DNA from: Bolinopsis microptera
Taxonomy: Eukaryota > Ctenophora > Tentaculata > Lobata > Bolinopsidae
Assembly (NCBI RefSeq): GCF_026151205.1
Contig: NC_087083.1
Coordinates: forward strand, 14,320,944-14,384,943
Direction: 5' to 3'
DNA length: 64,000 nt
The notes below the pieces were generated by a model. The model made no database searches. It had not been told where the DNA came from and worked only from the letters and a program-made list of their open reading frames with translations. Both the position numbers and the translations under genes were made by a program. Shown in pieces: positions 1 through 61,914 of the stretch. The stretch's first letter is position 1. Every line of letters starts with the position of its first letter.

Positions 1-3000
1 CTAACGTGTACAATTGTCCGGCAGGTTCTCAGTGCCACTATTCCACCCTAACCTGTACAATTGTCCGGCAGGTTCTCAGTGCCACTATTCCACCCTAACC
101 TGTACAATTGTCCGGCAGGTTCTCAGTGCCACTATTCCACCCTAACGTGTACAATTGTCCGGCAGGTTCTCAGTGCCACTATTCCACCCTAACGTGTACT
201 ATTGTTCGGCAGGTTCTCAGTGCCACTATTCCACCCTAACGTGTACAATTGTCCGGCAGGTTCTCAGTGCCACTATTCCACCCTAACGTGTACAATTGTC
301 CGGCAGGTTCTCAGTGCCACTATTCCACCCTAACGTGTACTATTGTTCGGCAGGTTCTCAGTGCCACTATTCCACCCTAACGTGTACAATTGTCCGGCAG
401 GTTCTCAGTGCCACTATTCCACCCTAACGTGTACAATTGTCCGGCAGGTTCTCAGTGCCACTATTCCACCCTAACGTGTACAATTGTCCGGCAGGTTCTC
501 AGTGCCACTATTCCACCCTAACGTGTACAATTGTCCGGCAGGTTCTCAGTGCCACTATTCCACCCTAACGTGTACAATTGTCCGGCAGGTTCTCAGTGCC
601 ACTATTCCACCCTAACGTGTACAATTGTCCGGCAGGTTCTCAGTGCCACTATTCCACCCTAACGTGTACTATTGTCCGGCAGGTTCTCAGTGCCACTATT
701 CCACCCTAACGTGTACAATTGTCCGGCAGGTTCTCAGTGCCACTATTCCACCCTAACGTGTACAATTGTCCGGCAGGTTCTCAGTGCCACTATTCCACCC
801 TAACGTGTACAATTGTCCGGCAGGTTCTCAGTGCCACTATTCCACCCTAACGTGTACAATTGTCCGGCAGGTTCTCAGTGCCACTATTCCACCCTAACGT
901 GTACAATTGTCCGGCAGGTTCTCAGTGCCACTATTCCACCCTAACGTGTACAATTGTCCGGCAGGTTCTCAGTGCCACTATTCCACCCTAACGTGTACAA
1001 TTGTCCGGCAGGTTCTCAGTGCCACTATTCCACCCTAACGTGTACAATTGTCCGGCAGGTTCTCAGTGCCACTATTCCACCCTAACGTGTACAATTGTCC
1101 GGCAGGTTCTCAGTGCCACTATTCCACCCTAACGTGTACAATTGTCCGGCAGGTTCTCAGTGCCACTATTCCACCCTAACGTGTACAATTGTCCGGCAGG
1201 TTCTCAGTGCCACTATTCCACCCTAACGTGTACAATTGTCCGGCAGGTTCTCAGTGCCACTATTCCACCCTAACGTGTACAATTGTCCGGCAGGTTCTCA
1301 GTGCCACTATTCCACCCTAACGTGTACAATTGTCCGGCAGGTTCTCAGTGCCACTATTCCACCCTAACGTGTACAATTGTCCGGCAGGTTCTCAGTGCCA
1401 CTATTCCACCCTAACGTGTACAATTGTCCGGCAGGTTCTCAGTGCCACTATTCCACCCTAACGTGTACAATTGTCCGGCAGGTTCTCAGTGCCACTATTC
1501 CACCCTAACGTGTACAATTGTCCGGCAGGTTCTCAGTGCCACTATTCCACCCTAACGTGTACACTTGTCCGGCAGGTTCTCAGTGCCACTATTCCACCCT
1601 AACGTGTACAATTGTCCGGCAGGTTCTCAGTGCCACTATTCCACCCTAACGTGTACAATTGTCCGGCAGGTTCTCGGTGCCACTATTCCACCCTAACGTG
1701 TACAATTGTCCGGCAGGTTCTCAGTGCCACTATTCCACCCTAACGTGTACAATTGTCCGGCAGGTTCTCAGTGCCACTATTCCACCCTAACGTGTACAAT
1801 TGTCCGGCAGGTTCTCAGTGCCACTATTCCACCCTAACGTGTACAATTGTCCGGCAGGTTCTCAGTGCCACTATTCCACCCTAACGTGTACAATTGTCCG
1901 GCAGGTTCTCAGTGCCACTATTCCACCCTAACGTGTACAATTGTCCGGCAGGTTCTCAGTGCCACTATTCCACCCTAACGTGTACAATTGTCCGGCAGGT
2001 TCTCAGTGCCACTATTCCACCCTAACGTGTACAATTGTCCGGCAGGTTCTCAGTGCCACTATTCCACCCTAACGTGTACAATTGTCCGGCAGGTTCTCAG
2101 TGCCACTATTCCACCCTAACGTGTACAATTGTCCGGCAGGTTCTCAGTGCCACTATTCCACCCTAACGTGTACAATTGTCCGGCAGGTTCTCAGTGCCAC
2201 TATTCCACCCTAACGTGTACAATTGTCCGGCAGGTTCTCAGTGCCACTATTCCACCCTAACGTGTACAATTGTCCGGCAGGTTCTCAGTGCCACTATTCC
2301 ACCCTAACGTGTACAATTGTCCGGCAGGTTCTCAGTGCCACTATTCCACCCTAACGTGTACAATTGTCCGGCAGGTTCTCAGTGCCACTATTCCACCCTA
2401 ACGTGTACAATTGTCCGGCAGGTTCTCAGTGCCACTATTCCACCCTAACGTGTACAATTGTCCGGCAGGTTCTCAGTGCCACTATTCCACCCTAACGTGT
2501 ACAATTGTCCGGCAGGTTCTCAGTGCCACTATTCCACCCTAACGTGTACAATTGTCCGGCAGGTTCTCAGTGCCACTATTCCACCCTAACGTGTACAATT
2601 GTCCGGCAGGTTCTCAGTGCCACTATTCCACCCTAACGTGTACAATTGTCCGGCAGGTTCTCAGTGCCACTATTCCACCCTAACGTGTACAATTGTCCGG
2701 CAGGTTCTCAGTGCCACTATTCCACCCTAACGTGTACAATTGTCCGGCAGGTTCTCAGTGCCACTATTTCACCCTAACGTGTACAATTGTCCGGCAGGTT
2801 CTCAGTGCCACTATTCCACCCTAACGTGTACAATTGTCCGGCAGGTTCTCAGTGCCACTATTCCACCCTAACGTGTACAATTGTCCGGCAGGTTCTCAGT
2901 GCCACTATTCCACCCTAACGTGTACAATTGTCCGGCAGGTTCTCAGTGCCACTATTCCACCCTAACGTGTACAATTGTCCGGCAGGTTCTCAGTGCCACT

Positions 3001-3110
3001 ATTCCACCCTAACGTGTACAATTGTCCGGCAGGTTCTCAGTGCCACTATTCCACCCTAACGTGTACAATTGTCCGGCAGGTTCTCAGTGCCACTATTCCA
3101 CCCTAACGTG
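1..3110 (+). repeat. 47-bp minisatellite spanning the UBE2G2 3' splice site
   Basis: About 66 near-identical 47-bp units run from the window edge into the coding exon at 3080. Each unit holds 13 bp of intron end (TTGTCCGGCAG and two bases) and the first 34 bp of the exon, which would read [11 protein letters not shown]. The array is therefore a tandem duplication of the intron-exon boundary. CCTAAC inside each unit also resembles a branch point. Variants are rare (CTGTAC in the first copies, TATTGTTCGG in a few). The unit is not a multiple of three, so using an upstream acceptor would shift the frame. Confidence 0.95.
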
Positions 3111-3656
3111 TACTCGTGCGGTAAGGTGTGTATCAGTATCCTACACCCACCTGGAGACGACCCCCTGGGCTACGAGCACTCTTCAGAGAGGTGGTCTCCT
3201 GTACAGAGTGTGGAGAAGATACTCCTCTCTGTTATCAGCATGTTGGGTTAGTACTTAGTTCCCTCAATATGATTTTAAATGTACTGTTCAATGCACTGTT
3301 CAATGTACTGTTCAATGTACTGTTCAATGTACTGTTAAATATATGCTATTTAATGTACTATTCAATGTACTGTTCAATGTACTAGAGTCAATGGATCCTG
3401 TAATGTGAACTGAATACAAGTTCTGATTTGTTCTGCTTTTTATGGATTGTAGTATTTGAGGTGTTACTGTTTAGGATTCACTGTAAGTAACCCGATTGTA
3501 CTAAATCTCCCACACTCTGATAATACCTCCCTATTTTCAGCTGAGCCGAACCCGGAAAGTGGGGCTAATGTTGACGCTTGTAAGATGTGGCGAGACAACA
3601 GGGACGGGTTCCTGAGGGAAGCTGATAAAGCTGTCAGACGTACTCTGGGACTCTGA
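3080..3656 (+). CDS. UBE2G2: UBE2G2-like ubiquitin-conjugating enzyme E2, last two exons
   Basis: E2 enzyme of the ER-associated degradation pathway, which in other animals transfers ubiquitin with gp78/HRD1-type E3 ligases. Exon A is 3080-3246 (acceptor CGGCAG|G, donor G|GTTAGT) and exon B is 3541-3656 (acceptor TTTTCAG|CT, stop TGA 3654-3656); phases agree. Exon A reads [17 protein letters not shown], with the HPN motif and the catalytic cysteine codon at 3129-3131, followed by the acidic-loop region [10 protein letters not shown] and [19 protein letters not shown]. Exon B reads [18 protein letters not shown] and ends TLGL. These motifs fit UBE2G2 better than UBE2G1 or CDC34. The N-terminal exons lie upstream of the window. 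Confidence 0.93.
3276..3385 (+). repeat. 12-bp tandem repeat in UBE2G2 last intron
   Basis: About eight degenerate copies of AATGTACTGTTC start 30 bp after the donor at 3247. Unlike the larger arrays, the unit does not contain the splice site. Confidence 0.85.
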
Positions 3657-3752
3657 AGTTAGAAGTAGTACACGTGCAAACTGCGCCGCGCACAGACGTA
3701 CTCTTGGACTCTGAAGTTAGAAGTAGTACACGTGCAAACTGCGCCGCGCACA
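3637..3752 (+). repeat. 58-bp tandem duplication across the UBE2G2 stop codon
   Basis: Two copies (3637-3694 and 3695-3752) contain the last seven codons, the TGA and 38 bp of 3' UTR. The first copy is used as the real C terminus; the second differs by about one base (CTCTTGG for CTCTGGG) and is untranslated. Confidence 0.92.
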
Positions 3753-4619
3753 ATGTCGCGTGTATTGTATGATTTCGTGCCAGTTTTGAGGAGGAGAAGA
3801 ATTCAAGAAAGATCGGATATGTGAGAAAACATCCCTCTTATCTGTGAACTACAAACATGATTATTAAATCACTGACATCGATTGGGCTTCATTTAAATGA
3901 CTTCGTTTAAGATACCTATTAAATTGTACAATTATATTGATTCGATAAGTAGCCATTACTATAAGATAAGCTGTAGAATTACGGAAATTATGTAGTTTTA
4001 AGCCACTAATTATCTTGTATGCGCTGGTTACTCATTTACTGATGTATTAGTGTAAAGTGTTGATTTAATGAATTACTGTGCTGTAGTCCGAATTTTCTTT
4101 GCTGCTAATTGAGTTTTCCTTAAATCTTATAATTTTCAAGTTGTGGTGCAAATTTATAATTCAAATCGGACTTGGTGTGTCATTAACTTTAGTCCAAATA
4201 TTATTGCGTGTTTTTGGTTCAGTTGTGGTTATCAAACTTTAGAACTCTGAATTTGAGTTCTCCAATCTCCATGTAAGTAATGTTAGTTATTGTCCGCGCT
4301 AACCTTCTTACCAACCCTAGGTATGGTTATATGATGAAGCCTCACTTATCAGGCGTTATTCACTGGAACTTCACACTGCTCAACTGAGAAACATTCCAAC
4401 TTTAAAGAATCGCTCCACCATTTCAGTGTCACTTGTATTTCAACTGAGAAATTCTCATTTTAGAAACTGAATAAAGACTATAACTTTGAATCAAATTGGT
4501 GTGGTCATTGGTGGTAAAGCATCTGTTTTGAGCGGAAGTTGTATACTAAAAAGAGAGGCTCGCCCAACATTTCATGTAAAAGATATCAGGCAGGGAAGTT
4601 GTCCAGTAACGTGTAAGAG
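3753..4619. other. Intergenic: UBE2G2 3' UTR and upstream region of RMDN
   Basis: No reading frame is supported here. ATTAAA near 3864 and AATAAA near 4469 are possible polyadenylation signals. The RMDN promoter must lie here, but I see no clear core element. Confidence 0.5.
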
Positions 4620-4727
4620 ATGGGCCTGATAAGTACAACACGGACTATAATGTACTGTATGGCAGCTGTTGTAACTACGGGGTGTGTCGGATTCACTGTT
4701 AACGCTTATATCCTCTACTTACTCAGG
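4620..4727 (+). CDS. RMDN: RMDN exon 1: N-terminal membrane anchor
   Basis: ATG at 4620 opens 36 codons starting MGLISTTRT, followed by a hydrophobic stretch of about 20 residues ending in YLLR. The donor is AGG|GTAACA in phase 0, matching the phase-0 acceptor at 5294. This start was chosen because it gives the anchor expected for the family and the correct phase. Confidence 0.75.
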
Positions 4728-7700
4728 GTAACATAATAAGGACCAGTTAATTAAGTTAAGTGCTCCATATTCCGAACATGTATTTCTCAGTGTTCATAAT
4801 GTATGCGATGAACAAGCAGAAAAAGAACCGGATGATAAAATCCGTTTGAGGTTAACCTGTAATTGCTAGTAAAACTTTAAACGGGTTTAACTTCCTTTCG
4901 GTTCCTTATATTAGTGTAAATTTAGCAACTTTTTTACACTTTTTGGAAAGGTTGACCTGATGATTCCAAGGAACCACTGTACCAAACCTCAAGATCAGGA
5001 AGTGGCTGGTTTTCTCAACTAAGAAACCGAAAAATTTAACAATTTAGACCTGTTCCAGCTTTGTTAGTACTGACAGGTAAACCTCAAACTTTGGCGAGGA
5101 CCATCTCAGGAACGCAAGGCCAGATTTGAACCGGTTCTACTTGTTCGACTCCAGCAGCTGTTTCATATATAATATATGAAAACTGAAAATTTACGTTTTT
5201 GGTCTAGATAAGATAATAGTCTGGATAAAATCATTTTTATTATCAGAGACTCAAATTAAAAACCTCTCCTCCACCTCATCAACACCCCTTCAGGAGAATG
5301 TGAAACGACTAGAATTGGAGATAACCGCACTGAGACGTGAACTCACGCAGGTTGATGGTGACGTCACACGGTCATCACGTGACGTCACACGGTCATCACG
5401 TGACGTCACACGTGACAGAGCCTCTGATAGTGAGAGTGAGGATGAATTTCAGCTAGCTCTCGAGAGCATACCTTCACAAAGGTACCCAGCTTTGTTCATA
5501 GGTCCTGATATCTAAATTCCGCGATACATTCTATGATTTTAGCGTGTTTCTTTAATAAAACTATAATGTAAATAGTTTTCAGTTATTTTACTGCATCCAA
5601 TTTTCAGTATTATAGCCCAAGGAACGGACAGCCTGTGTACAGACAGACAGTGCGAGAGTGGCTTGTTAACACTGTGTCAGAGTATTGATAAGGATCACGA
5701 TACTCTCAAGTTAACGGAGCAAGGCTGTGAGCAAGGTCTTACTACACTCACACAACTTAATGATCAGGTAGGATACAGTGTTCCTTACACTCACACAACT
5801 AAATAACCAGGTAGGATACAGTGTTCCCTACACTCACACAACTAAATAACCAGGTAGGATACAGTATTCCCTATACACTCACACAACTTAATAACCAGGT
5901 AGGATACAGTGTTCCTTACACTCACACAACTAAATAACCAGGTAGGATACAGTGTTCCCTACACTCACACAACTAAATAACCAGGTAGAATACAGTGTTC
6001 CCTACACTCACACAACTTAATGATCAGGTAGGATACAGTGTTCCTTACACTCACACAACTAAATAACCAGGTAGAATACAGTGTTCCCTACACTCACACA
6101 ACTTAATGATCAGGTAGGATACAGTGTTCCCTACACTCACACAACTAAATAACCAGGTAGAATACAGTGTTCCCTACACTCACACAACTTAATGATCAGG
6201 TAGGATACAGTGTTCCCTACACTCACACAACTTAATGACCAGGTAGGATACAGTGTTCCTTACACTCACTCAACTTAATGACCAGGTAGGATACAGTGTT
6301 CCTTACACTCACTCAACTAAATAACCAGGTAGGATACAGTGTTCCTTACACTCACACAACTAAATAACCAGGTAGGATACAGTGTTCCTTACACTCACAC
6401 AACTTAATGATCAGGTAGGATACAGTGTTCCCTACACTCACACAACTTAATAACCAGGTAGGATACAGTGTTCCCTACACTCACACAACTAAATAACCAG
6501 GTAGGATACAGTGTTCCTTACACTCACACAACTAAATAACCAGGTAGGATACAGTGTTCCTTACACTCACACAACTTAATGATCAGGTAGGATACAGTGT
6601 TCCCTACACTCACACAACTTAATGATCAGGTAAGATACAGTGTTCCTTACACTCACTCAACTTAATGATCAGGTAGGATACAGTGTTCCCTACACTCACA
6701 CAACTTAATGATCAGGTAGGATACAGTGTTCCTTACACTCACACAACTTAATGATCAGGTAGGATACAGTGTTCCCTACACTCACACAACTTAATGATCA
6801 GGTAGGATACAGTGTTCCCTACACTCACACAACTTAATAACCAGGTAGGATACAGTGTTCCTTACACTCACTCAACTTAATGATCAGGTAGGATACAGTG
6901 TTCCTTACACTCACTCAACTTGATGACCAGGTAAGATACAGTGTTCCTTACACTCACTCAACTTAATGACCAGGTAAGATACAGTGTTCCTTACACTCAC
7001 ACAACTAAATAACCAGGTAGGATACAGTGTTCCTTACACTCACACAACTTAATGATCAGGTAGGATACAGTGTTCCCTACACTCACACAACTAAATAACC
7101 AGGTAGGATACAGTGTTCCCTACACTCACACAACTAAATAACCAGGTAGGATACAGTGTTCCCTACACTCACACAACTAAATAACCAGGTAGGATACAGT
7201 GTTCCTTACACTCACACAACTTAATGATCAGGTAGGATACAGTGTTCCCTACACTCACACAACTAAATAACCAGGTAGGATACAGTGTTCCTTACACTCA
7301 CACAACTAAATAACCAGGTAGGATACAGTGTTCCCTACACTCACACAACTTAATAACCAGGTAGGATACAGTGTTCCCTACACTCACACAACTTAATGAC
7401 CAGGTAGGATACAGTGTTCCCATATTATTTATTAAGGAAATGTTTGAAGTTTTATTACTAAACTAATTAATTTGAATCAGTAACCAGTAGTCACTTATTA
7501 ACCAGGAGTCACAAAGTAAGCATGAATCACTAAGTAACCAGGAGTCACTAAGTAACCAGTAGCTCAGGTCACTAAGTAACCAGTGGGGGGGGTACCAATG
7601 GCATAAATGGCATAATGGAGAATTGGCCAAGCAAAATTTCCATTTATGCCATGAAATTTCTATGCCATTTGACGATTTTTATGCCATTTGACGATTTTTA

Positions 7701-10700
7701 TGCCATTTGTCTCCATTTTATGCCATTCGAAATATGAAATTTTAAAACTTTGAACTGAGAATTTAATAACGAATAGTCTGCACTACACTAGTACTGTCCA
7801 CCTTTATCTCTATTTATTGTACTAGTACAACATTTATTTTCACCCATTAAATTCCTCAAAATATCCCTAGCAATGGGCATTATTGATTATAATGACGTTC
7901 AATTATGTATATCAATATGATATGAGAATTTGGTTGATAGTGGACAAGTGACCGGGCAGTATGGCATAGTACACGCTACACACCATATAACAGAGAGGAC
8001 AGTCGACTGAATGCTCCGAGTCAATCGAATATCCAAATTAACAGTGGAAAACTGTAACAGAGAGGCTGGGCCTGGTTGGCCCACGAGAGGATAGCATATG
8101 GATGCTTTGCCTACCTCTGGGGTATGACAGTCCTGTGGGAGTTTGCCAGTGGAATCAAGATGTTTAATCAAGGATGATGGTAAGTGTTGTGGGGTGTGTC
8201 ATAGATAAACGCTTAAGTGGTGGTTGAGTGTGGAAGAGAGAGGCGGAATAAGACGGCGTTAAAGTAGTCGCTATGTTACACCTGTCTGGTCCAACTCCTC
8301 CGGCACCACTAAGCGTTTAGTGTGGTTTGTAAAGTTGACAATGGTGGAGATGTGTTGGTTGTCGAATATGTCATTGACAGAGAGGTAGTAGTCCCGGAAA
8401 TATTGACCTCTTATTTGTGCAATAGCCGGGCACTGTCCGAGAAAGTGTGAGACAGTCTCCTCTCCGTCGCCGCATTAAGGACAAGCACTTGTGTCTGATT
8501 TGCGAATGGTGTGTAGGTGTTTGTTGAGGCCACAATGTCCCGTGATGAGGTGCACTGCAGTTCTGTAATTTTGTCTGTTGTTACCGAGTGTAGTGTTGAG
8601 ATTTTTGATGATGTTGATGTTTTTATGTCCAAGTGTCAGTTTAGTGTGTCTGGGACCATCAGTAATCCATGATTCTTGATTAAGTTTTGTGACTTTGTCG
8701 TTGATCAGGCGTTTGATGTAAGATTGTGGTATTGGGCAATTCAAAGTGGATTCACTGGTTGTGCCTTTTTTGGCCAGCTCGTCTGCTTTTTCATTACCCC
8801 ACAATCCGATGTGTGCTGCTATCCATCTGATTTCTAAGGTGTTAGTGGATCCGAGTGTATTGAGGGTGTCGTAACAGTCTCTAGTAGTTCTACTCCTCGT
8901 TGAAGGTGAGGATATAGCTTGAATAGAGGAGAGACTGTCCATATGATGATATGTGTGTTTTTGTAAGTTGATAGATATTTACAAGCTTCGATGATGGCAG
9001 TGAGTTCTGTTTGATAAACGGTGCAATAATCGGGAAGCTTGAATGATCTTTCATCTAGTGTAGTGTTGTTGTTGTCTGTGGTGATAATATAACCAGCCCC
9101 GCTACCTGAGTCTGTGCTTGACCCGTCTGTGTAGCAGGTGATGGTTTCACTGGGGATGTTGTCGATGGTGTTTTGGAGTGAGCCTCTATATTCGATGTTG
9201 TCAGCTCCAGGAGTGGTGACCGTGAAGCGTCGTTCAAGCATCTTGGTTGGTATAGATAGGTCTCTCTCTGCTTTGGGTGGTATGTTGAGGTCTACCATGA
9301 ATTGTTTGTTGATAGTGGTGTGAGTTGTGATGGTACCTTTTCTGGGGGCGATAGTTTCGAGGGTTAGGCTTTCGTAGGCTTGAAGCCTGGCTGTGCCCTT
9401 GCTGCCTCACCTCTCAGGAAAAGTATGATATCTGGAGTGTTAGTGAGGTGGTTCAGTGCGATGAAGGGAGTACTAGGCATGGCACCAGACATCATTCTCA
9501 ATGCCAATGCCTGAACTCGTTTGAACTTCCTCGCGTTGGTGTCTGTTTGGGTTGCCCTAATCCATATACTACAGCAGTATGATAGAATAGGTCTGATGAC
9601 AGCGGTGTACATCCATTTGCATGTTTTAGGGCTCATACCCCAAGTGGGGCCGACAGCTCTTCTACATTGCATAAGGGATGCCGTAGCTTTTTTGGTGGTA
9701 TTGGTGATATGTTCATTGAAATTGAGCTTGCTGTCGAGGGTCACTCCTAGGAATTTGGCAGATCTGGATAGACCTATAGTGGTGTTACCCACCACCACAG
9801 GTCTAAGTGTCCATTTCTTATTCCAGGTAAACATGACTATTTGTGTTTTGAGTGCGCTTATGGATAGATCTTTGGTTTGGCACCATTTTTCTATTGTGTT
9901 GATGGTTTTGCGTGTTCTGTTCCAGATGATATCTAAATCATTCCCCTCCGCTAGAGAAAGCAGATCATCTGCAAAAGCTTGCAGATAACCTGGTATGTCT
10001 CTTGCGGTGTAGGCCAGGAGATCATCGACTACCAGGTTCCAAAGGAAAGGGGAAAGGATGCCACCTTGGGGGCACCCGCTCCGGATCCGAACCCTTTTCG
10101 ACTTATCCTTATGATTTAATGTGATGAATCTGTTAGTTACCATGTTGATAATCCATTTTGCTGTGGCCGGATCCACTTTCGTGGTCTTGATAGCGTCAGA
10201 AATAGCCTTGAAAGAGACATTATCAAAAGCTCCCTCTATATCTAGAAAGACTCCTAAGACATATCCCTTCTTAGCTATCCTGCGCTCGATGGTGTGAGTA
10301 ACTTTATGAAGGGCTGCTTCGGGTGAACATCCCTTCTTAAAGCCAAATTGTCGTTTGTTGATGTCTTTAGCGTGTTGCATATGCCACAGTATCGCCTTCT
10401 CCTGTAGTTTTAATATCACAGGAGAAAGGGTGATAGTGCGAAATGATTTCGGTTGGTTGTAGTCAGTTTTTCCAGGCTTTGGGAGAAAGATTCCAAGGGA
10501 TTCTTTCCACAAAGTTGGAATGTGTCGGGTTTCATGATTTTTTGTCATAATGGTTCTGGTGATGTCTTTGATGTGTGTCCAAGCTTTCTGTATGATGATA
10601 GGTTTGAGGGTGTCGGGTCCAGCAGCTTTCAACGGATCAAAGGATTTAAGAGCCTCCTCGATTCTGTCTGGGCTGTAGATGGTATTGAGTAAGGTGGTGG

Positions 10701-13700
10701 TGATTGGTAGAGGTCCAGGTGGAGGCACTGGCGGGTCAGTGACACTATTCTTGAAGTGGGTTTGTGTCATGACCTCCAGTGTCTCCTCTGCATTTTTGGT
10801 GATGTCTCCGTTTGGTTTGTAAACGGCTTCTAGTGTGTGCTTGTTGTCGTTGCAGGATTTCAGAATCTTGTTCATCCTTCCGGAACCGTGTCGGGACCGT
10901 GTTCATGTTGAAGCTTTTAAAATTTAAACATTTTCATAAGATTGATAATGATCTGTAAACATGTTTCGAATGGGTAGCCTCTTAAAAATAATATTCATTG
11001 ATATCTCGATGAACCTGTATATAAGTATTACATAACAGTTCACCAAATGACCTGAAATACTTGCTTCCTATTATACAAAATGATGATGACATAATATATT
11101 GCTTAAATAACGCTGGACAGGGCGTCGAGGGACTGCATTTGAGAAGGGAAAAGAAATAATTTCCCTGTGTTCGCCGCAGTCGCAGATCCCGAAGAACAGA
11201 GTGGGAAGCCAATCGTCCATGGCCAAGTACTTTCTTGGGAAGCTGTAGATGATGAAGCTGGATGCCTCGAGGATGAGGACGACTTAGCTTATGAGGTAGA
11301 ACCTGGAGTTGATGATTGTGATGTTGGAGAAACGATATCAACAGATAAATATGGAACACTTTCCTTCCGGTCTTTTGAGACACTCACGCTCAATGGAGGA
11401 AGAAGCACTTTATCAACAAAATCTCGTCTTTCAAGATTCAAGGGGAACGCGTTTGGAGTGTCTTCTGATGTTCGCATATACAATCAACCTGAATGCGGAT
11501 GTTCAACAGTTTTGAAAGCTGGCAGTACAGAAACTCTTAAAGTCTTCAAATCTCAGCAGGACTTTGCAACAGGAGTGGTTAGATTTATTTCTTATAAGTC
11601 ATGCCCGATGAAGTACTACTGCCAGGAACATAGCCTAATCAATGGATCTCCTAATGTTTGGCTACTCGTCGAAGACAAATACATCAGATGCATTGTTCCT
11701 TGATGACATTCAAAATCGTTGTGTTGTCAATGTTTGTATTCTGTACATTTTGAACATCTCACAATTTGCTTTTCTTGAATAGTGAAATGTTTGGTATATA
11801 TTTGATATAATACATTTCTATTTTCTTTATTTAGTTATTTGTCATATGAATCTTTGACTTTAACGATCATTCCAAGCGTTATAAAGCATGAAACATGTCT
11901 CTTATTCAAGTACTAATAATATTTGCGAATCTAAAGTCATCCTAAAGGTCAAATATGAAGACCTAAATTCATGGCATAAATTGGCATAAATGGAGAATTG
12001 GCCAAGCTAAATTTCCATTTATGCCATGAAATTTCTATGCCATTTGACGATTTTTATGCCATTTGTCTCCATTTTATGCCATTGGTACCCCCCCTAACCA
12101 GTGCAGGAGTCACTAAGTAACCAGGAGTCGCTAAGTAACCAGGAGTCACTAAGTAACCAGGAGTCACTTAGTAACCAGTAGTTCAGGTCACTAAGTAACC
12201 AGGAGTCACTAAGTAACCAGAGGTCACTAAGTAACCATGAGTCACAAAGACGTAACCATGAGTCACTAAGTAACCATGAGTCACTAAGTAACCATGAGTC
12301 ACTAAGTAACCATGAGTCACTAAGTAACCAGGAGTCACTAAGTAACCAGGAGTCACTAAGTAACCAGAGGTCACTAAGTAACCACGAGTCACTAAGTAAC
12401 CATGAGTCACTAAGTAACCATGAGTCACTAAGTAACCGTATCTCCCCCAGACACCAGACACCCCACAACTAATGTGGAGGCTCGCTAGAATAATGTACGA
12501 GAAAGCAAAACACAACACTAAAGCGGGAGTAAACGCCCAGAAAGGACTGTTAGAGGCACTCGCTATTGCAAAGAAAGTAAATCATATTAATTTGCTTTTT
12601 TGCTCATCCTGATTTTCTTATTTGATTTTTGTTTGGGTCTGTGATCTTGAACTGAATATGTACCAGTAGCAAACGACACAAATGTTGGTAGTTTCAACTT
12701 ATAACAATATACAATTTGTATTTACTGTTAAATGTAATATTATGTTGAGCAATGGCAGGGTGAAGAGTTGAGTGAAGGGAACTCTAAGAGCCACCTGTGG
12801 TACGCTATCCTACTGGGTGACACGTGTAAATATGACGATACGCGCGTTAAACTGACCAAGGGTTTAGAATTTGAGAAGCAGGTGAAACTCTCGCTGGATA
12901 TTGATCCCTACAATTCTACTGCGCTGCATCTGATCGGGAGATACTGTTTCGAGGTGACATTCTGTAATTTCTTTTCTTTCTTCTTTTCAATAAAGCATTT
13001 TTAAATTATTATAATTTGCGCACTCATGTTATTGTACCTAATACAATAATACATTCGTTTCTTCGGGCTACGCGTGATAATTCCTGACAGCTTGCTGGAG
13101 GGAATTTTCGGTCTGAAGTAATACCTTCGGTTCCGGTTCCTTGCGGGAAAAATCTGCAAATTATCAGCTCTCAGTGTTGACGAGTTTTAGTGCATATAAT
13201 TCCCGGAAATAGTTATAACCCTTTACTGTCAGGTATCAGGTATAAAACCCTTTACTGTCAGGTATCAGGTATAAAACCCTTTACTTTCAGGTATCAGGTA
13301 TAAAACCCTTTACTGTCAGGTATCAGGTATAAAACCCTTTACTGTCAGGTATCAGGTATAAAACCCTTTACTGTCAAGTATCAGGTATAAAACCCTTTAC
13401 TGTCAGGTATCAGGTATAAAACCCTTTACTGTCAGGTATCAGGTATAAAACCCTTTACTGTCAGGTATCAGGTATAAAACCCTTTACTGTCAGGTATCAG
13501 GTATAAAACCCTTTACTGTCAAGTATCAGGTATAAAACCCTTTACTGTCAAGTATCAGGTATAAAACCCTTTACTGTCAGGTATCAGGTATAAAACCCTT
13601 TACTGTCAGGTATCAGGTATAAAACCCTTTACTGTCAGGTATCAGGTATAAAACCCTTTACTGTCAGGTATCAGGTATAAAACCCTTTACTGTCAGGTTT

Positions 13701-14765
13701 CAGGTATAAAACCCTTTACTGTCAGGTATCAGGTATAAAACCCTTTACTGTCAAGTATCAGGTATAAAACCCTTTACTGTCAGGTATCAGGTATAAAACC
13801 CTTTACTGTCAGGTATCAGGTATAAAACCCTTTACTGTCAGGTATCAGGTATAAAACCCTTTACTGTCAGGTATCAGGTATAAAACCCTTTACTGTCAGG
13901 TATCAGGTATAAAACCCTTTACTGTCAGGTATCAGGTATAAAACCCTTTACTGTCAGGTATCAGGTATAAAGTGGTGGGAAGCTAAGATAGCAGCTACTT
14001 TGTTCGGGTGTGTACCTCAGTCTACCTATGATGAGGCCCTGCAATACTTCCTCCGTGCTGATGAGATTAATAGTGAGTGGATGGAGAACTCTCTCTTCAT
14101 TGCTAAGGTAACTTATATTGGGTTAATTATTTATTTAGTTGATTGGTTACTTAATTCAGTAACTGAATACTCAGTTAATTGTTTAGTAGGGTAATTGTCA
14201 TTGAAACTTCTCCATTCTACTTTAAAACCATTTAAATTTCTGTGAGGAATTTATTTCGTAATTTTTGTTCAAGAAAATTTGTTCCGCGAAATTGATTGCT
14301 CGTGACTTGATTCTTCGTTGAATCATTTAAATTTTGAATTTGCGAAAATTTAAACCGCGAGGAAGATAAAATGTCCGCGGTAAAATTGGTTTTACAGTAT
14401 CATGTACTTCTTTCTTGATATATTGATAGTAATATACGACATACGTGACATCTTGAGAAAAATACGTATCTCCTACGTTGATAGAAGATTACGTTTTACG
14501 TGAAACATTTCAATTTCCAGTGTTTGATTGCCCTGAAAAGGAATGAAGAAGCTAAATCTTGGTTGGATAGAGTTGATTTGAAACAGGTAATTTTAAGCAA
14601 AATCAATTGTCATCAGTTGTACTGAATCTACAATATTGGAATCTAAGATATCAGATATTTAAAGCTCGAACAGTTGTTTTAACTTTACAGTGATAATTAA
14701 ATCGTTGTCAGGGGGCAGAACACGAACTTCAAGCTCAAATAACAGACTTGAAAAAGAAGTTGTAA
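4620..14765 (+). CDS. RMDN: RMDN family protein (regulator of microtubule dynamics), 8 exons
   Basis: Predicted 348-residue TPR-like protein. Exons: 4620-4727, 5294-5481, 5608-5767, 12451-12576, 12759-12953, 13958-14107, 14521-14586, 14712-14765; all phases agree and the total is 349 codons with the stop. Exon 1 encodes an N-terminal hydrophobic anchor; exon 2 a charged helical stretch and an acidic SDSESEDEF segment; exons 4-7 the helical-repeat core with [47 protein letters not shown] and [20 protein letters not shown]. These match the RMDN1/2/3 (FAM82) core, whose vertebrate members sit on mitochondria, ER contacts or microtubules. An anchor plus coiled segment resembles RMDN2/3, while the length is nearer RMDN1, so no paralogue is assigned. 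Introns carry three minisatellites and a 4.5-kb transposon. Confidence 0.9.
5294..5481 (+). CDS. RMDN: RMDN exon 2: helical and acidic linker
   Basis: Acceptor CTTCAG|GAGAAT, donor AAAG|GTACCC. It encodes [19 protein letters not shown] (heptad-like), a DVTRSSR heptapeptide repeat and an acidic serine-rich stretch. Confidence 0.8.
5360..5415 (+). repeat. 21-bp in-frame coding repeat containing TGACGTCA
   Basis: 2.6 copies of a 21-bp unit lie inside RMDN exon 2 and encode DVTRSSR repeats. Each unit carries the palindromes TGACGTCA (CRE consensus) and CACGTG (E-box). Confidence 0.9.
5608..5767 (+). CDS. RMDN: RMDN exon 3
   Basis: Acceptor TTTTCAG|T, donor GATCAG|GTAGGA. It ends [11 protein letters not shown]. 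The last ~24 bases and the donor are repeated downstream as the 43-bp array. Confidence 0.85.
5748..7418 (+). repeat. 43-bp minisatellite spanning the RMDN exon 3 donor
   Basis: About 39 copies. The unit holds the last ~24 exonic bases (ACTCACACAACTTAATGATC plus AG) followed by the donor GTAGGATACAGTGTTCC. The first copy is the real exon end (5748-5767). Main variants are TAAATAACCAG against TTAATGATCAG, and CTCACT against CTCACA. All copies keep AG|GTAGGA or AG|GTAAGA or AG|GTAGAA, so each retains a donor. Confidence 0.96.
7474..7585 (+). repeat. 18-bp minisatellite, left part (split by transposon)
   Basis: Degenerate copies of AGTCACTAAGTAACCAGG. The array continues at 12095 after the inserted 4.5-kb element, so both blocks were one array in the intron before RMDN exon 4. 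The last nine bases, TAACCAGTG, recur at 12095-12103 as a target-site duplication. Confidence 0.85.
7590..7736 (+). repeat. Left terminal module of the 4.5-kb element
   Basis: AT-rich module with ATGGCATAAATGG at its start and four TTTATGCCATTT motifs. It is copied in the same orientation at 11970-12094, a direct-repeat arrangement on top of the inverted tips. Confidence 0.85.
7900..10900 (-). mobile_element. 5'-truncated LINE (RT plus RNase H), inserted in the 4.5-kb element
   Basis: The minus-strand LINE starts abruptly near 10900 without an endonuclease domain. Its 3' UTR seems to run to about 7900, the end being estimated only. It sits wholly inside the inverted-repeat element and so is younger than it or was carried with it. 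Confidence 0.7.
8271..10875 (-). pseudogene. LINE ORF2: reverse transcriptase, RNase H, C-terminal zinc knuckle, broken
   Basis: The RT domain (9364-10875) has PKPGK, the D motif in [26 protein letters not shown] and the catalytic FADD (near 9965-9977), then the thumb. A frameshift near 9385 leads to an RNase H domain with YTDGSS, QTELTAI and, after a second frameshift near 8943, DSLSS and [11 protein letters not shown]. The tail has [19 protein letters not shown], with a TAA between the two halves, and ends at the stop at 8271. At least three disruptions make it inactive. C-terminal RNase H plus a zinc knuckle suggests the I/R1/LOA-type LINE group; the clade is not certain. Confidence 0.85.
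11167..11703 (+). CDS. Unidentified 178-codon reading frame inside the 4.5-kb element
   Basis: The open frame begins at a GTG (the true start is unclear; CGCCGCAG at 11174-11181 could be an acceptor) and ends at TGA 11701-11703. The product would be acidic in its first third ([16 protein letters not shown]) and cysteine-containing later ([21 protein letters not shown]). I recognise no transposase motif. It could be an exon of transposon cargo, a captured host exon, or a chance frame; its size, and composition unlike the AT-rich surroundings, favour real or recently real coding sequence. Confidence 0.35.
   Translation: MFAAVADPEEQSGKPIVHGQVLSWEAVDDEAGCLEDEDDLAYEVEPGVDDCDVGETISTDKYGTLSFRSFETLTLNGGRSTLSTKSRLSRFKGNAFGVSSDVRIYNQPECGCSTVLKAGSTETLKVFKSQQDFATGVVRFISYKSCPMKYYCQEHSLINGSPNVWLLVEDKYIRCIVP
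11970..12094 (+). repeat. Right terminal module of the 4.5-kb element
   Basis: Direct-orientation copy of the left module, ending TTTATGCCATTGGTACC and seven C residues, the inverse of the left tip. Confidence 0.85.
12095..12438 (+). repeat. 18-bp minisatellite, right part, before RMDN exon 4
   Basis: About 18 copies of AGTCACTAAGTAACCATG with CCAGG, CAGAGG and CACG variants, ending 12 bp before the acceptor at 12450. It abuts the junction without including it. Confidence 0.9.
12451..12576 (+). CDS. RMDN: RMDN exon 4
   Basis: Acceptor CCCCCAG|ACACCA, donor AAGAAA|GTAAAT. It encodes the conserved LMWRLAR helix and ends ALAIAKK. Confidence 0.88.
12759..12953 (+). CDS. RMDN: RMDN exon 5
   Basis: Acceptor ATGGCAG|GGTGAA, donor TTCGAG|GTGACA, 65 codons in phase 0. 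It carries [11 protein letters not shown] and the TPR-like [17 protein letters not shown]. Confidence 0.9.
13215..13970 (+). repeat. 29-bp minisatellite spanning the RMDN exon 6 acceptor
   Basis: About 26 copies of a unit with ACCCTTTACTGTCAG (pyrimidine-rich acceptor) followed by GTATCAGGTATAAA, the first 14 bases of exon 6. The last copy at 13943-13970 is the real junction. Every copy therefore offers CAG|GT. Confidence 0.96.
13958..14107 (+). CDS. RMDN: RMDN exon 6
   Basis: The acceptor CTGTCAG|GTATCAG was chosen because it is in phase and gives [19 protein letters not shown], as in the family. Later AGs at 13963-13964 and 13971-13972 are alternatives. Donor GCTAAG|GTAACT. Confidence 0.85.
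14521..14586 (+). CDS. RMDN: RMDN exon 7
   Basis: Acceptor TTTCCAG|TGTTTG, donor AAACAG|GTAATT, 22 codons: [20 protein letters not shown] then KQ. Confidence 0.88.
14712..14765 (+). CDS. RMDN: RMDN exon 8, C terminus
   Basis: Acceptor GTTGTCAG|GGGGCA. It encodes [17 protein letters not shown] and the stop TAA 14763-14765. Confidence 0.85.
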   Translation, partial: GAEHELQAQITDLKKKL

Positions 14766-15678
14766 CTGAAGAAGCAATCTTGAAAATAGTGTGTACTGAC
14801 TGTAAAAACAGTGGATATCAGACTGGCGAAGATAATTGGATAAAGCATAGGGAATGTTTTACTTAATTCTTTATCTAGCAAAAAGATGGTTTATATCACT
14901 ATTTATGTGTAAAGAAACAGCGAAGTTGAGTTCCCCATGTAATATTTTTAATTATGTACTAGCTATAATAGTGATCGTTTGTAATTTATCTGCAGATATG
15001 GACAAAGTTAGTCTCTTAATAGCCGATATTTATTCGTATTACACTGAAGTTATTTATAGCATATTGAATAAATTAAACCAAGTAATGTTTGTATATTACT
15101 CTCCAAATATTATAATAAACAACTTTGCAATTCATGCTTCGGAATCCAAAAAATACCTGGGCAAAACTCAGGAACCCGTTCATTCAGCATGCCTATTTTC
15201 AGACTTCCTTCATCATAAGAATACATGATACATATGGAGCTGCTGTAGAACTAGAGTCCATGTAACCCATCAACTGCCCCACTTGGCCCCTTGTAGGTTT
15301 ATAACCTACCAAGACGTGCGCCGATTTAAACTCGTTGACGGATGATACCGAACGTGCTAAATCACTTTACAGTCGATAGATTGGAGATTTTTCTAAAACA
15401 TGAAAGTTGAAACATCTCTGACATCTGAACTTCTGAATCGATGTATTTTCGAATGCTGATTATCGGTATCCAATCAATCATGATCAGGTTGTCATCTCCT
15501 CAGTAGCGCCTTACTTGATGAGATTGAGTGGCCGGATCACTGATTAAGTGCAGAGATCACGTATCCGATGGATTTTGAAATGGTCATAACTCCGCCAAAT
15601 TTTGAACAATGAACTTGAAACTTTGGAAAAGGTTTTAAATTATCAAGCCAAATGTGTGCAACATTTTGAGTTCCTAGC
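14766..15678. other. RMDN 3' UTR and convergent intergenic DNA
   Basis: Separates the RMDN stop from the convergent BTB-like gene. The AT-rich 124-codon frame at 14854-15228 has no domain and is probably UTR. Nothing else is recognised. Confidence 0.6.
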
Positions 15679-17016
15679 TTAAAGCGTTCTCATTTTATGA
15701 AGACAATAATGAAAAAAAGGGAGTGTTACCAGGTTCTGTACACTGTGATATATAATTGCCGGGTGTTTAAAAGAAAAGTGATAATTGTAAACAGTGCCTG
15801 ATGGTAAACTTTCATCTCTGTTGAAGAAATGTTTCAATGAACTGATTACTTTCTTTCCAATACCTGGAGAATCGGTAATCTCCTTATCTGCATTTAGGAT
15901 AACATTCTCATGATAACTAGAAAGCTGATTGTTATTGATTATTTCATTTAACACTGAAATAAGCTCAAATCTCTGCGATAAAGGAGAGTAGTTTAAGGTA
16001 TGTATCATCATATCCACGTACTGCTTTGGGACCTTTTGGATGTGTTTGTCTCTGCAGCTTGTTTCCAAGATTTTAATAAATGTTTCTGTTTCTTCCGTGG
16101 TTGGAGGATTTTGGTAGAAAACTCCAACCAGCGTATCAACAACTTTAAACATGGATGTGATGATGTTCCTTGCAATCAAATCTGTCAAACTGTTCATTGT
16201 TTCACACCTGTTCCACAAATCAATGTTTTTATCACTGTTGTACACCTGATCTGTAGTCCTTTCCTTTGTGTTCGTGCTACGGGAACTAGCTGATTTAATT
16301 GCCTCCGTAGTCAGTTTAAACGCATATTTCATATCCTCTGCTGAAATATTCAACAAATCTTGTATCTTCTCGCACATCTCTAAAAACTGATCTTTATTTT
16401 GCTTCCAGCAAAGTGTGAGATCCATTCGGCTTAGAAGATACTTACTGTTTTTATCCAGGATTTTACTGTTTTCCAAGTTCATTAAAACTATTCGAAGGAA
16501 AAGTTTAGTATTACATCCTCCAAGAACCAACATGAGATCAATCTGAACAACGTCTAATTTACCCAACTCTGTCATGTACTGCAACACGAATGAATTGTTG
16601 TCCCTACCAGAAAACCTGCACATAAAACCGTTCATTAAATCATGCTGCTCCCACTTGTTCCTTATATAGAGGGACTCCTCAAAAGCAAATAACTTCTCCT
16701 CATCCGTCACAGCTTTCTCCATCCTGCATTCCAGCCATTCCTTTAGTTCCTTCACCAGCCACACCACCTCGAACACGTGACCTAACTTGTGTTGCTCCCT
16801 GAACTGAGCGGTCTCCAAATCTCCCACACTCTTATCGTCCAATAATGTAACAAATAATGTTACACTCACAGGGTTGAAGTCTTCCAGGTCTAGCTCATCG
16901 TAATTCAGTTCCTCTATCAGGTAGCGGAACATTCGGCTGTCTTCCGTTAATCTCTGTTTGGAGACATTCAGCGGGTCTCCGTCCTTCAGCTTTATGATTA
17001 TTGTTTCTTCGTTCAT
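15679..17016 (-). CDS. BTB-like domain protein, intronless, 445 aa
   Basis: The ATG at 17014-17016 opens a single uninterrupted frame. Residues ~1-95 resemble a BTB/POZ fold: MNEETIIIKLKDGDPLNVSK, then DSRMFRYLIEEL and LEDFNPVSVTLFVTLLDD, followed by a helical region with VFEVVWLVKELKEWLECRM, like the segment after BTB domains. The remaining ~300 residues are helical with no domain I can name, ending near FKHPAIIYHS. BTB proteins usually dimerise or act as cullin-3 adaptors; that role here is inference only. The last ~25 residues after FKHP look less family-like, so the 3' end may be frameshifted or truncated. Intronless structure beside intron-rich genes suggests a retrogene or a member of an expanded family. 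Confidence 0.75.
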   Translation of the reverse strand: MNEETIIIKLKDGDPLNVSKQRLTEDSRMFRYLIEELNYDELDLEDFNPVSVTLFVTLLDDKSVGDLETAQFREQHKLGHVFEVVWLVKELKEWLECRMEKAVTDEEKLFAFEESLYIRNKWEQHDLMNGFMCRFSGRDNNSFVLQYMTELGKLDVVQIDLMLVLGGCNTKLFLRIVLMNLENSKILDKNSKYLLSRMDLTLCWKQNKDQFLEMCEKIQDLLNISAEDMKYAFKLTTEAIKSASSRSTNTKERTTDQVYNSDKNIDLWNRCETMNSLTDLIARNIITSMFKVVDTLVGVFYQNPPTTEETETFIKILETSCRDKHIQKVPKQYVDMMIHTLNYSPLSQRFELISVLNEIINNNQLSSYHENVILNADKEITDSPGIGKKVISSLKHFFNRDESLPSGTVYNYHFSFKHPAIIYHSVQNLVTLPFFHYCLHKMRTL

Positions 17017-17810
17017 TTTAATGTTGATCTAAAAGAAAATGTAATATCATGTTTAAATTGGCTTTATCATGTTCATTGTTATGTTCACTCTAGCATATAC
17101 AATATACCCTGGTAATACCAACGTACCAACGATATAAAACATTCGTGCGGTATGTAAATGTAATATAGAAGGCTTGTTGGAGATACTGTAAGTGTATTAT
17201 TCAATTGCAGTTCAATTTCACATATATTAAAATTGGAAAAAATCGTTTAGAAACTTTTACCCGGAACAGTACTACGTCTTGAAGCGAGCCAAGAGCCTAG
17301 AATTAAGTATCAGGTAACAGCACAAATTGTAAGATCAACGCGGAGAGAAACAAAGGTATGTGAAGATAAACCAACTGAAACTCAAAGCTCTGAGTCTGTG
17401 CGATGATCTCACAGAATGTAACGGTGGGTTAGTCACATTGGTTGGTCACTGGTCACGTGCGTGTTATATGATACTGTACCATCGCTCTACCTTCAGCTAT
17501 TCACGGATAAGATCCAAATAAGATTTGTTTTATCTGCGGCGCGGCTCCCTTTTTCGTCCTGTTAGATAACTTTTAAATGAAATCATCGTTAAACCTAATT
17601 TATTATCTCTGTTCGCGTGGTAAGAATAATTTACAATTTTATCAGAGTATGCAGTATGGCGCTGGCATACACTTTTGAAGGCATACTATACTGGCTGGCA
17701 GCCCCCTTTGAAATTCCAATCTTACATCGAAATCGAAACAATATAATAGGAATGACTTGAAAACTATTGGAGATGAAGATTCCGAATATATAATGAACAG
17801 TTGAACAGAG
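17017..17810. other. Intergenic, upstream of the BTB-like gene
   Basis: Divergent space between the BTB-like start and a small plus-strand frame. No promoter element or repeat is clear. Confidence 0.5.
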
Positions 17811-17972
17811 ATGACCGACGACATCTGCAATATGTACTCCACCGCCATAAGGGGTGCTATTGCCAACAGTGATACCTTCACCAACGTTAAGGCCGATTGT
17901 GGGGATTTCAACGGGGCTTCTGGATTCGGCTTCAGTGCTCTTCTGGTGACGATCATGTGCATCTTGTACTAA
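17811..17972 (+). CDS. Small plus-strand frame, possible terminal exon with hydrophobic tail
   Basis: 53 codons from ATG 17811 to TAA 17970-17972. GAACAG|AGATG just upstream could be an acceptor, which would make this a last exon. The polypeptide has two cysteines and ends GASGFGFSALLVTIMCILY, a short hydrophobic tail after small residues that looks like a GPI-anchor signal. No upstream exon is visible, so it may be a gene fragment. Confidence 0.3.
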   Translation: MTDDICNMYSTAIRGAIANSDTFTNVKADCGDFNGASGFGFSALLVTIMCILY

Positions 17973-18076
17973 GCTCTAAGAAGGAACATTCGAAATGCTT
18001 AGGCCGACACTAATTAATTATGCTATTAAGGGAATAAGGAGTATAAGTATAACTCCACTTTTGACCTATTCGACGG

Positions 18077-18439
18077 GGCTCTTACTAATTCGCTCGCCCA
18101 AAAATTTCACGTGACTTTGGTTTTTATGGTTTTGCAGCCGTACAAAACGGTTTTACATAAACCCTAATCCTAACCATAACCCCGAAGCTAACCATAACCC
18201 TTACCACAACCCTAACCCTAACCCGGGCCCTAAACAATCGAATTCGTATTTTACTAGCCTGTCACGTGACCAAAACGGTTTTTTGCCCATAACTCTCCAG
18301 GGAAGCATTTTAACCCTACGTCATGGGGGGTGATTCGGAATCAGCGTCCAAAAATACACCGATCCAGATCACTTTCATGCCCAAAGGGCCTTTTCACAAG
18401 AATTTTCTTAAAATTTGGGCGAGCGATTTAGTAGGAGCG
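18077..18439. mobile_element. 363-bp MITE with 9-bp target-site duplication
   Basis: The ends GGCTCTTACTAATTCGCTCG and (reverse complement of right end) CGCTCCTACTAAATCGCTCG form an imperfect inverted repeat of ~30 bp. The flanks are ATTCGACGG at 18068-18076 and 18440-18448. The interior at 18160-18235 is a degenerate CCCTAA telomere-like stretch. No coding capacity. Confidence 0.8.
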
Positions 18440-18448
18440 ATTCGACGG

Positions 18449-19344
18449 CCACTTATTACATATTAATACTGCATGTTTTACAATTTTTTTTGCTAGCCTT
18501 AGTAGATTTCCATACTGATGCCGTTTGAGGTTCTGATGACCACGCCCTTCGGTGACCACGCCCAACTCAAGATTGGTAAATCGTAGAAAATTCGAAGAAC
18601 CATATTTATGTGTTTGGGGGACTTCGCCGCTTCGACTCGTCGCGCAAACTAGCATTCTTGCTTCGCAGAGCAACGATCCCGATGGGTTGACACCGTCAAA
18701 TTCAATCAATTATGTGTTTGATGATCTTAGATTTGATCTATTTGTAACCATTTATTAATTTTAACATGTAAGATGATTAAAGTTGCTGAATTTATTGAAT
18801 AAGATTGAAAATGTATAGCTATAACATCAAACAACATGGATCACATAATACCTCCAATAAATACACCTACAACTCTGTAAAGAAGAAATATTGCCCATCA
18901 CAATTAAGCGCGCAGTGTGTTTTGTATATTTTAGTTGTCATATTGTTGTATATAGTAGTATACACTTTGTATGTAGTTCAACTTCAAGCAACTTCCTCGA
19001 CTGATGCCCTTTACAAAATAATAAATATACTCATTTTATCATAAAAATAGTATTAAAATCAGCTAAGCAACTAATAGGAGATTGAAAGGCTGTAAGTCAG
19101 TTAGAAGACGATATTTGGTGACTACAAGTTGTGGATTCTCTGTTTATTATATTAATTAATACCACTATTATACACTATTATACAATTACTCAGGAATGAG
19201 GAAGTAAACCTACACGTAGCTAGAGAAAATATCATTTTATAGTATCGACTATAAATAATCGAACGTCTTCTAACTGACTTTTCAACTAAAATTTCAATCG
19301 ACCGATGAAGACACAATACGTACCACGTAACATGTATAAATGTA
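18449..19344. other. Intergenic AT-rich DNA
   Basis: No supported gene. A 79-codon frame at 18805-19044 has a hydrophobic centre but no homology I know. A short GC-richer block at 18621-18690, with CATTCTTGCTTCGCAGA, resembles one at 31052-31115 and may be the end of a dispersed element. Confidence 0.5.
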
Positions 19345-19543
19345 TTCCTGTCACCAAGATGTAATCAGATCGAACGCATAAATTAGATCGAACCGGTTTG
19401 ATCTAGGAATTAGATCGAACGCTGGCGCGAGATACATATACAAATACATTGAAAGCCGCGCCGCGCGTTCGATCTAATTACTAGATCGAACCGGTTCGAT
19501 CTAATTTCTGCGTTCGATCTAATTACATCTTGGTGACAGGAAC
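19345..19543. mobile_element. ~200-bp foldback element with GATCGAAC motifs
   Basis: The termini TTCCTGTCACCAAGATGTAA and reverse complement face each other. The interior has at least six copies of TTAGATCGAAC in both orientations around GC-rich GCGCGCC. A second, left-deleted copy lies at 50055-50153. Confidence 0.85.
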
Positions 19544-19984
19544 TGACACCAAGATATTATAAACATAATGTACAATGTATATGAAGCACTGAAGCAGCAT
19601 GGCAAATGTGGAGGACTGTCTGTTAACATGAAATAAGTTTCATCTGGGGAGCCTATCTGTAATCTGTAGGTTTAAATTGTTATAAGTTAAATAACTCTGG
19701 GATATGTCTATAAGGTTTCATACAATAATTCATAAAAAAGGGTCGCTACTAAAATCTGTATCCAATCATTAACAGTTTCTTAATTGGAAATCTGCAGTGG
19801 GGTCACAGGACTTTAGATTTCCATACTGATGCCTCGCAAAACTGTCATACTATCAACTAAACGCACTATTATTTAACTAGTTCAGCCTTATAACTATACC
19901 TAAAATCATAACCTAGTATTTAACGGAACTTAAAGCAGTAACACAAAGTACAAATAAATATATTTCAGTGGATTACTGACACGA
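19544..19984. other. ABCC 3' UTR and downstream region
   Basis: Lies 3' of the ABCC stop (minus strand). AT-rich; TTTATT at 19955-19960 is the reverse complement of AATAAA and could be its polyadenylation signal. Nothing else is recognised. Confidence 0.45.
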
Positions 19985-61316
<41,332 letters not shown>

Positions 61317-61321
61317 CTATA

Positions 61322-61824: not shown

Positions 61825-61914
61825 ATAAACAATATAATCTCAACATGGAGAACGTGTGCTGTGATATAACATTACGCTTACTCATATCACCTGTGTTCCT
61901 ATTCTGAAAGCCAG

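Follow-up and report, generated by a model that had tools for sequence, protein, structure and literature searches.

Minisatellites that span exon-intron boundaries, called mirages, have been described in amphioxus in Adh3 and in the globin genes BflGb6 and BflGb9 (PMC3087553; Canestro et al. 2002 as cited there). According to the available part of that report, their units measure 10-72 bp in Adh3, where they lie at donors and acceptors, and 150-160 bp in BflGb6; they are reported not to disturb splicing and to be somatically unstable. Minisatellites with 30-bp units and about 4 copies on average are also found at exon-intron boundaries of human segmental-duplication genes, as given in the accessible text of PMC2812944. 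Here we describe arrays of this type in Bolinopsis microptera, a member of the ctenophores, which have been argued to be the sister lineage to other animals (PMC10232365, available portion). Like amphioxus mirages, the ctenophore arrays are tandem repeats lying over 5' and 3' exon-intron boundaries with splice signals in their units, and in both systems concerted evolution is seen and length differs between copies or haplotypes. Exon-end bases and the splice site were contained in the unit at 10/10 listed junctions, unit length was 20-63 bp, and the two units searched genome-wide (42 bp and 20 bp) were locus-specific, indicating that the ctenophore arrays are mirage-type. They differ from what the available text reports of amphioxus in phylum, in affecting many junctions per gene, in a position bias linked to copy number, and in reaching up to ~232 copies, compared with BflGb6 haplotypes of 3 and 6 units. 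The human repeats are likewise of minisatellite size and vary between copies; in contrast to the ctenophore junctions, across which the protein frame looks conserved, they can alter splicing and form novel introns (PMC2812944, accessible text). The available excerpts on repeats of PMC12783039 (an earthworm gene) and of the two ctenophore papers PMC12221973 and PMC11797021 contain nothing of this kind, and among the matches listed in the open-access literature we found no ctenophore report of such arrays. New are therefore the phylum, the density, the scale (~232 copies, 9.5 kb) and the dependence on copy number.

The window, i.e. the whole stretch of 64,000 nucleotides analysed, comprises bases 14,320,944-14,384,943 of the 15.2-Mb contig C12 and lies ~0.8 Mb from the end of this contig. 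TRF returned 48 rows for the window, and arrays with a unit of at least 10 bp and at least 4 copies made up 25.8 of its 64 kb, all lengths being those of the assembled sequence. Position was tested in the window plus three adjoining 10-kb stretches, a 94-kb region picked for being striking that carries four genes (TXNL1, UBE2G2, RMDN and ABCC) with 45 introns and 90 junctions, while genome-wide searches used an assembly of 264.65 Mb in 232 contigs. Exon positions were set from splice dinucleotides and the conservation of peptides. A small codon model trained on ABC-transporter exons proved too weak for the ab initio detection of short exons and served only in the search for neighbours. Exon edges are approximate for TXNL1 exon 8 and for ABCC introns 1 and 7. 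In the test scripts the UBE2G2 acceptor was off by 1 and the donor and acceptor of the 41-bp-array intron by 6 and 2, respectively, and exon 18 begins at 53984 rather than at 53958, so that the interior 21-bp array lies 36, not 62, bp from its acceptor; correcting these edges left the class of every array unchanged.

The UBE2G2 acceptor GGCAG/GTTCTC is spanned by a 47-bp array (1..3113, plus strand; TRF and spliced protein) that starts outside the window at L029:9635 and counts 74 copies including the part in L029. Its unit joins 14 intron bases, ending in GGCAG, to 33 exon bases, and AG was kept in 74/74 full copies. Native intron lies upstream of the first copy, the last copy enters the UBE2G2 coding exon at 3080, and the spliced protein aligned with human UBE2G2 over residues 1-165 with no gap. 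A 12-bp array of 8.7 copies (3278..3383, plus strand; TRF) departs from the pattern: it lies inside a UBE2G2 intron, 31 bp away from the donor. In TXNL1, a 10-bp ACTAACTAAC array of 30 copies with 70% matches (L029:5079-5395), which forms a series of branch-point-like motifs, stops 10 bp before an acceptor. A 23-bp array (L029:7863-8612) starts a few bases past the TXNL1 stop codon, so that the end of a coding sequence may be a further place where arrays occur.

Two RMDN junctions are spanned on the plus strand, as mapped by TRF and protein alignment: the donor CAG/GTAGG at 5767/5768 by a 43-bp array of 39 copies (5742..7421), and the acceptor CTGTCAG/GTATCAG at 13957/13958 by a 29-bp array of 26 copies (13217..13971) whose unit includes 13 exon bases. 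Joining the RMDN exons at these sites gave an open reading, and the query aligned with RMDN3 over residues 37-228 of 250 with no gap at the 43-bp or the 29-bp junction; the first ~25 residues of the query were in the wrong frame, which does not affect the matched 37-228. An 18-bp array (7479..12437, plus strand; TRF) consists of two parts, 7479-7559 and 12104-12437, and ends 13 bp upstream of the RMDN exon at 12451. Between the two parts, at 7560-12103, lies a retroelement with a 503-aa reverse-transcriptase ORF recognised by eye.

ABCC, an MRP-like gene of which 29 exons were placed, carries the arrays described next, which lie on the minus strand. Exons 16-23 joined at the sites given below were open throughout; alignment with ABCC2 extended over residues 6-232 of 232 and covered the 42-, 51-, 34- and 35-bp junctions, and the C-terminal query aligned with ABCC3 over residues 3-451 of 453, covering the 35-, 63- and 41-bp junctions. 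The largest array, with a 41-bp unit including 26 exon bases, spans the donor CTCAG/GTAAGT (20547..30384; TRF, ABCC3 alignment), counts ~232 copies in 20871-30384 (9.5 kb) with 2.7 more past a 214-bp insertion, and occupies almost the whole intron, which otherwise measures ~59 bp; a database protein (P0001, 83% identical) is continuous across this junction. The donor ATAG/GTATG is spanned by a 63-bp array (37381..43531; TRF, ABCC3 alignment) split by a retroelement at ~38485-42294 with a 1100-aa ORF at 38900-42202 (reverse transcriptase, by eye). As retroelements split both the 18-bp and the 63-bp array in two, the arrays are older and the elements came later. TRF together with the ABCC2 alignment placed three arrays over acceptors: an irregular 35-bp array over TTTTGTAG/AAACTG (43594..43760; 3.1 copies by TRF at 43594-43702, plus diverged copies), a 34-bp array of 12 copies over TTTCAG/GACATG (44127..44537), and a 42-bp array of 80 copies over CCGCAG/ATATCG (54466..57813). 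The donor AAAAG/GTATG is spanned by a 20-bp array of 59 copies (58178..59356; TRF). At the donor CACAG/GTAATA lies a two-copy 51-bp duplication with a perfect 42-nt repeat (53254..53346; ABCC2 alignment), the only named array that TRF did not list; it was shown by direct sequence comparison and represents an incipient case. Nearby, outside the window, ABCC acceptors are spanned by arrays of 59 bp and 40 bp and an ABCC donor by a 36-bp array of 3.1 copies.

Other ABCC arrays lie beside a junction. A 14-bp array ends 3 bp short of the acceptor TATAG/GAAC (61320..61825; TRF), and a 29-bp array of ~172 copies (61923..64000, continuing to L030:2932; TRF) starts 7 bp past a donor lying outside the window. 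A second 14-bp array, of 14 copies, is interior by its position relative to the placed exons, 117 bp from the donor (60917..61112), and is the sole exception to junction contact among arrays of at least 10 copies in the 94-kb set. A telomere-like 6-bp array starts 1 bp inside the donor CAG/GTACCC (30650..30855; TRF); other telomere-like AACCCT/GGTTAG arrays in or near genes were seen at 18160-18224 of the window and at L029:861-1008. Separately, a piece of ~175 bp (53432-53606) occurs on at least 12 contigs at 90-95% identity and is a short dispersed element ending beside an ABCC exon.

The sequence-only reading had listed ten junction arrays containing exon-end bases and the splice site, and all ten are present, nine of them backed by protein alignment. 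At the tenth, the 20-bp array is present and its junction was placed by frame and splice consensus only. Two others, the 51-bp array and the one it had placed at 43591, do span their junctions, with two copies and ~3 irregular copies, respectively. Its claim that the units are unrelated and no element is spreading was also supported: the units differ, and of the two searched genome-wide the 42-bp unit was found at the window locus and at one segmental paralog only, while the 20-bp unit matched the same two loci and, weakly at 75-76%, C11 and C10. Its statement that no genome with this habit had been described gives way to the amphioxus mirages in PMC3087553.

Within the spanning arrays unit copies are 91-99% alike (TRF), and the splice dinucleotide was kept in 573/583 full copies of ten spanning arrays. 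Core splice bases were not significantly less variable than the rest, either by polymorphic columns (2/20 versus 4.8 expected, P = 0.054) or by rate (P = 0.32); a value of P = 0.012 was reached only after post hoc removal of one array, and constraint is not claimed. Divergence by thirds along the arrays showed no consistent direction. A CTAAC branch-point-like motif starts 24 bases before each junction in the UBE2G2 unit and 14 bases before it in a copine unit described below, and the other spanning units have a weaker motif or none. Introns with spanning arrays retain 59-509 bp of non-repeated sequence.

To evaluate position, each unit was placed randomly at any position touching its own array-free, transposon-free intron. 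High-copy arrays were those with a unit of at least 10 bp and at least 10 copies, and abutting meant within 13 bp of a junction, a cut-off set after inspection of the data, with other cut-offs also computed. The second halves of split arrays (7479-7559, 37381-38484 and 20547-20656) were excluded from the counts, and a guessed transposon content of 8.1 and 4.2 kb was subtracted from the lengths of introns I20 and I25, respectively. The 94 kb hold 18 high-copy arrays: 10 lie across a junction, 7 are abutting and 1 is interior. Junction contact in 17/18 arrays thus compares with 8.0 expected (P = 1.4e-6), while spanning alone, 10/18 versus 5.3 expected, was weakly above expectation (P = 0.013). 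With insertions retained in the introns, 5.6 contacts were expected (P = 4e-12). Contact cut-offs of 3, 5 and 7 bp gave P = 0.0025, 0.0047 and 3e-5, those of 10, 13, 20 and 30 bp gave P = 8e-6, 1.4e-6, 2e-5 and 5e-4, and copy cut-offs from 4 to 30 gave P from 1.2e-4 to 1.4e-6. Array-free introns have a median length of just 190 bp, which makes chance contacts common; those with high-copy arrays tend to be somewhat shorter (129 bp versus 210 bp in the rest, P = 0.06). The junction habit is real, yet about half of the contacts follow from short introns.

The bias depended on copy number. Among arrays of 3-10 copies (n = 8), 2 span, 1 abuts and 5 are interior, with 2.1 contacts expected; those of fewer than 3 copies (n = 20) include no spanning array, 2 abutting and 17 interior ones, and a coding repeat (21 bp x 1.9, 74779-74819) that was assigned to none of the three classes, with 4.3 contacts expected. 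The two-copy 51-bp duplication, absent from the TRF list, stands outside these 20. High- and low-copy arrays differed in contact with Fisher P = 2e-7, and with P = 2e-6 when the 51-bp duplication and the coding repeat were counted as touching. A separate search for two-copy repeats, in which introns I20 and I25 were left out, found contact in 1/9 and no junction preference, one of the nine being a piece of the 41-bp array. The seven arrays with units shorter than 10 bp comprised 4 abutting and 3 interior ones. Over 45 arrays, copy number fell with distance to the nearest junction (Spearman -0.67, P = 4e-7). The birth of duplications looks indifferent to junctions, and their growth or persistence does not; that only expanded arrays show the junction bias points to differences in growth or survival. 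As regards the earlier reading, the repeated junction habit that it inferred exceeds chance, with half of the contacts attributable to short introns, whereas the seeding at junctions by nicks, R-loops or slippage that it proposed is not supported, given the 2/20 and 1/9 contacts; its other proposal, selective tolerance, fits better than seeding and is unproven.

A part of ABCC, around exons 15-20, is repeated 0.5 Mb away (C12:14.880-14.896 Mb, 80-89% identical). Probes from exons 21-22, 23-24 and 26-27 detected no second gene copy, where the matches of the latter two probes include dispersed repeats and 40/752 candidates were scored for exons 26-27. In the paralog the 42-bp array (C12:14881902-14887771) has ~140 copies versus 80 in the window and the 20-bp array (C12:14889005-14893251) ~212 versus 59, both adjoining sequence that matches the same exons. 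Being common to both copies, these arrays are older than the duplication and have changed in length since. Two interior seeds have expanded there as judged by match spacing, a 15-bp seed from 2.6 copies in the window to ~60-70 and a ~21-bp seed from 2.5 to 12-16, and growth of interior arrays is therefore possible.

A wider sample, small but chosen independently of arrays, consisted of 17 stretches of 10 kb (170 kb) at fixed positions of contig C1, the satellite stretch L042 being left out. It held 10 high-copy arrays, of which 3 span a junction. In L034 a 46-bp array spans the acceptor of a copine gene (Pfam Copine over the exons), and in L041 a ~29-bp array lies at a donor and a 12-bp array at an acceptor of one gene, which we take to be receptor-like and for which a Pfam search returned no match. 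One 11-bp array lies ~19 bp from a donor, and for the remaining six high-copy arrays of this sample no clear coding neighbour was seen. Minisatellites of other animals are concentrated near chromosome ends; here the C12 window and two C1 stretches, those at 1.0 and 2.5 Mb, had a high array density, and most other C1 stretches (L032-L048) had a lower one, the satellite stretch excepted. The latter (L042, C1:14.5 Mb) consists over its entire 10 kb of a 434-bp satellite in 22.9 copies, possibly centromeric. L034:1161-2415 is occupied by 4.5 copies of a 277-bp tandem repeat that begins like a tRNA and has a hammerhead-like core (CTGATGAGTCC..GGACGAAAC); by eye it appears retrozyme- or SINE-like. 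In L047 (C1:22.0 Mb) seven photoprotein genes of almost the same sequence follow one another at a spacing of 999 bp, and their best solved-structure matches are berovin and mnemiopsin, at 323 and 319 bits, respectively.

We tentatively favour, as a quite possible account, that these mirage-type arrays are born blind to junctions and expand or survive mainly at junctions through splice-neutrality. Small duplications would arise across genes irrespective of splice sites, as the class of 2-3 copies supports, and those that include an exon-intron boundary would enlarge by ordinary unequal exchange or slippage, a few reaching tens or hundreds of copies; that these are homogenised is shown by the 91-99% likeness of units in the spanning arrays. 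A duplicated junction would be neutral to splicing, as use of the outermost site, whether this is the first donor or the last acceptor, would still yield the correct mRNA and everything in between would be intron, and expanded arrays would survive at or beside a splice site because the outermost site is still usable. Growth of an array inside a short intron, on the other hand, would move the donor away from the branch point and acceptor. Units with AG/GT at a donor may have an extra buffer, since mis-splicing between copies would restore the site and permit re-splicing. Recursive splicing would thus be compatible with donor arrays and not with several acceptor arrays: those without GT directly after AG (34, 42, 40 and 35 bp) cannot correct themselves by re-splicing. 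Splice-site redundancy is not the direct explanation of the 7/17 touching arrays that lie beside a junction and show no visible copy of it in their units, although the opening units of some of them, at donors (29 bp, 17 bp), look by eye like a diverged splice site. A bolder version, which we regard as doubtful, would make ctenophore junctions privileged sites of unlimited array growth: arrays that bear a junction, removable and self-correcting through splicing, would expand to kilobases and be a main route of intron lengthening here, with growth elsewhere in short introns restrained.

It is unlikely that junctions are instead mutational hotspots at which damage linked to transcription or splicing (R-loops, nicks, polymerase pausing) seeds arrays and keeps enlarging them. 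The contact of nearly all high-copy arrays (17/18) despite differing units, and the two-copy 51-bp duplication that spans a donor, speak for such a hotspot, but low-copy duplications lack junction enrichment, no motif common to the units was seen by eye, and the paralog shows growth of two interior arrays; a hotspot acting on expansion alone is untouched by the low-copy objection. Rather improbable, too, is that no special process is at work and that arrays which escape coding selection and grow neutrally anywhere in short ctenophore introns touch junctions frequently. The 190-bp median intron and a null expectation that, of 18 arrays, already reaches 8.0 for contact and 5.3 for spanning lend this some weight, but the observed 17 contacts exceed it, also with both interior arrays of the paralog included (17/20, P = 7e-6), and low-copy duplications in the same introns match the null while high-copy arrays do not. 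The Rogers model of intron gain (as cited in the available part of PMC3087553) resembles the ctenophore arrays in invoking tandem duplication that includes a splice signal, and would make the arrays young introns born from duplicated exonic AGGT. Some introns are indeed almost all array, such as that of the 41-bp array, and mirages were proposed to lead to new introns (PMC3087553, same part); however, the model takes both intron ends from the unit, whereas each ctenophore unit carries just one of the two ends of an existing intron, of which 59-509 bp remain unrepeated in the introns with spanning arrays, making this reading very improbable. Least probable of all is that the arrays are carried and spread by a mobile element or are assembly artefacts: retroelements do lie within two arrays, but they interrupt rather than carry them, and in place of the one sequence family in many introns expected of introners or dispersed elements the units differ, the two searched are locus-specific, and the 42-bp unit has no more than two locations, one of them in the gene duplicate.

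In the literature searched, mirages have so far come from few amphioxus genes, and their dense occurrence in a ctenophore suggests a recurrent and general process. The dependence on copy number turns the question of why arrays sit at junctions into a testable contrast between array birth and array growth. The arrays also bear on how introns lengthen and on how the spliceosome handles dozens to hundreds of identical successive splice sites.
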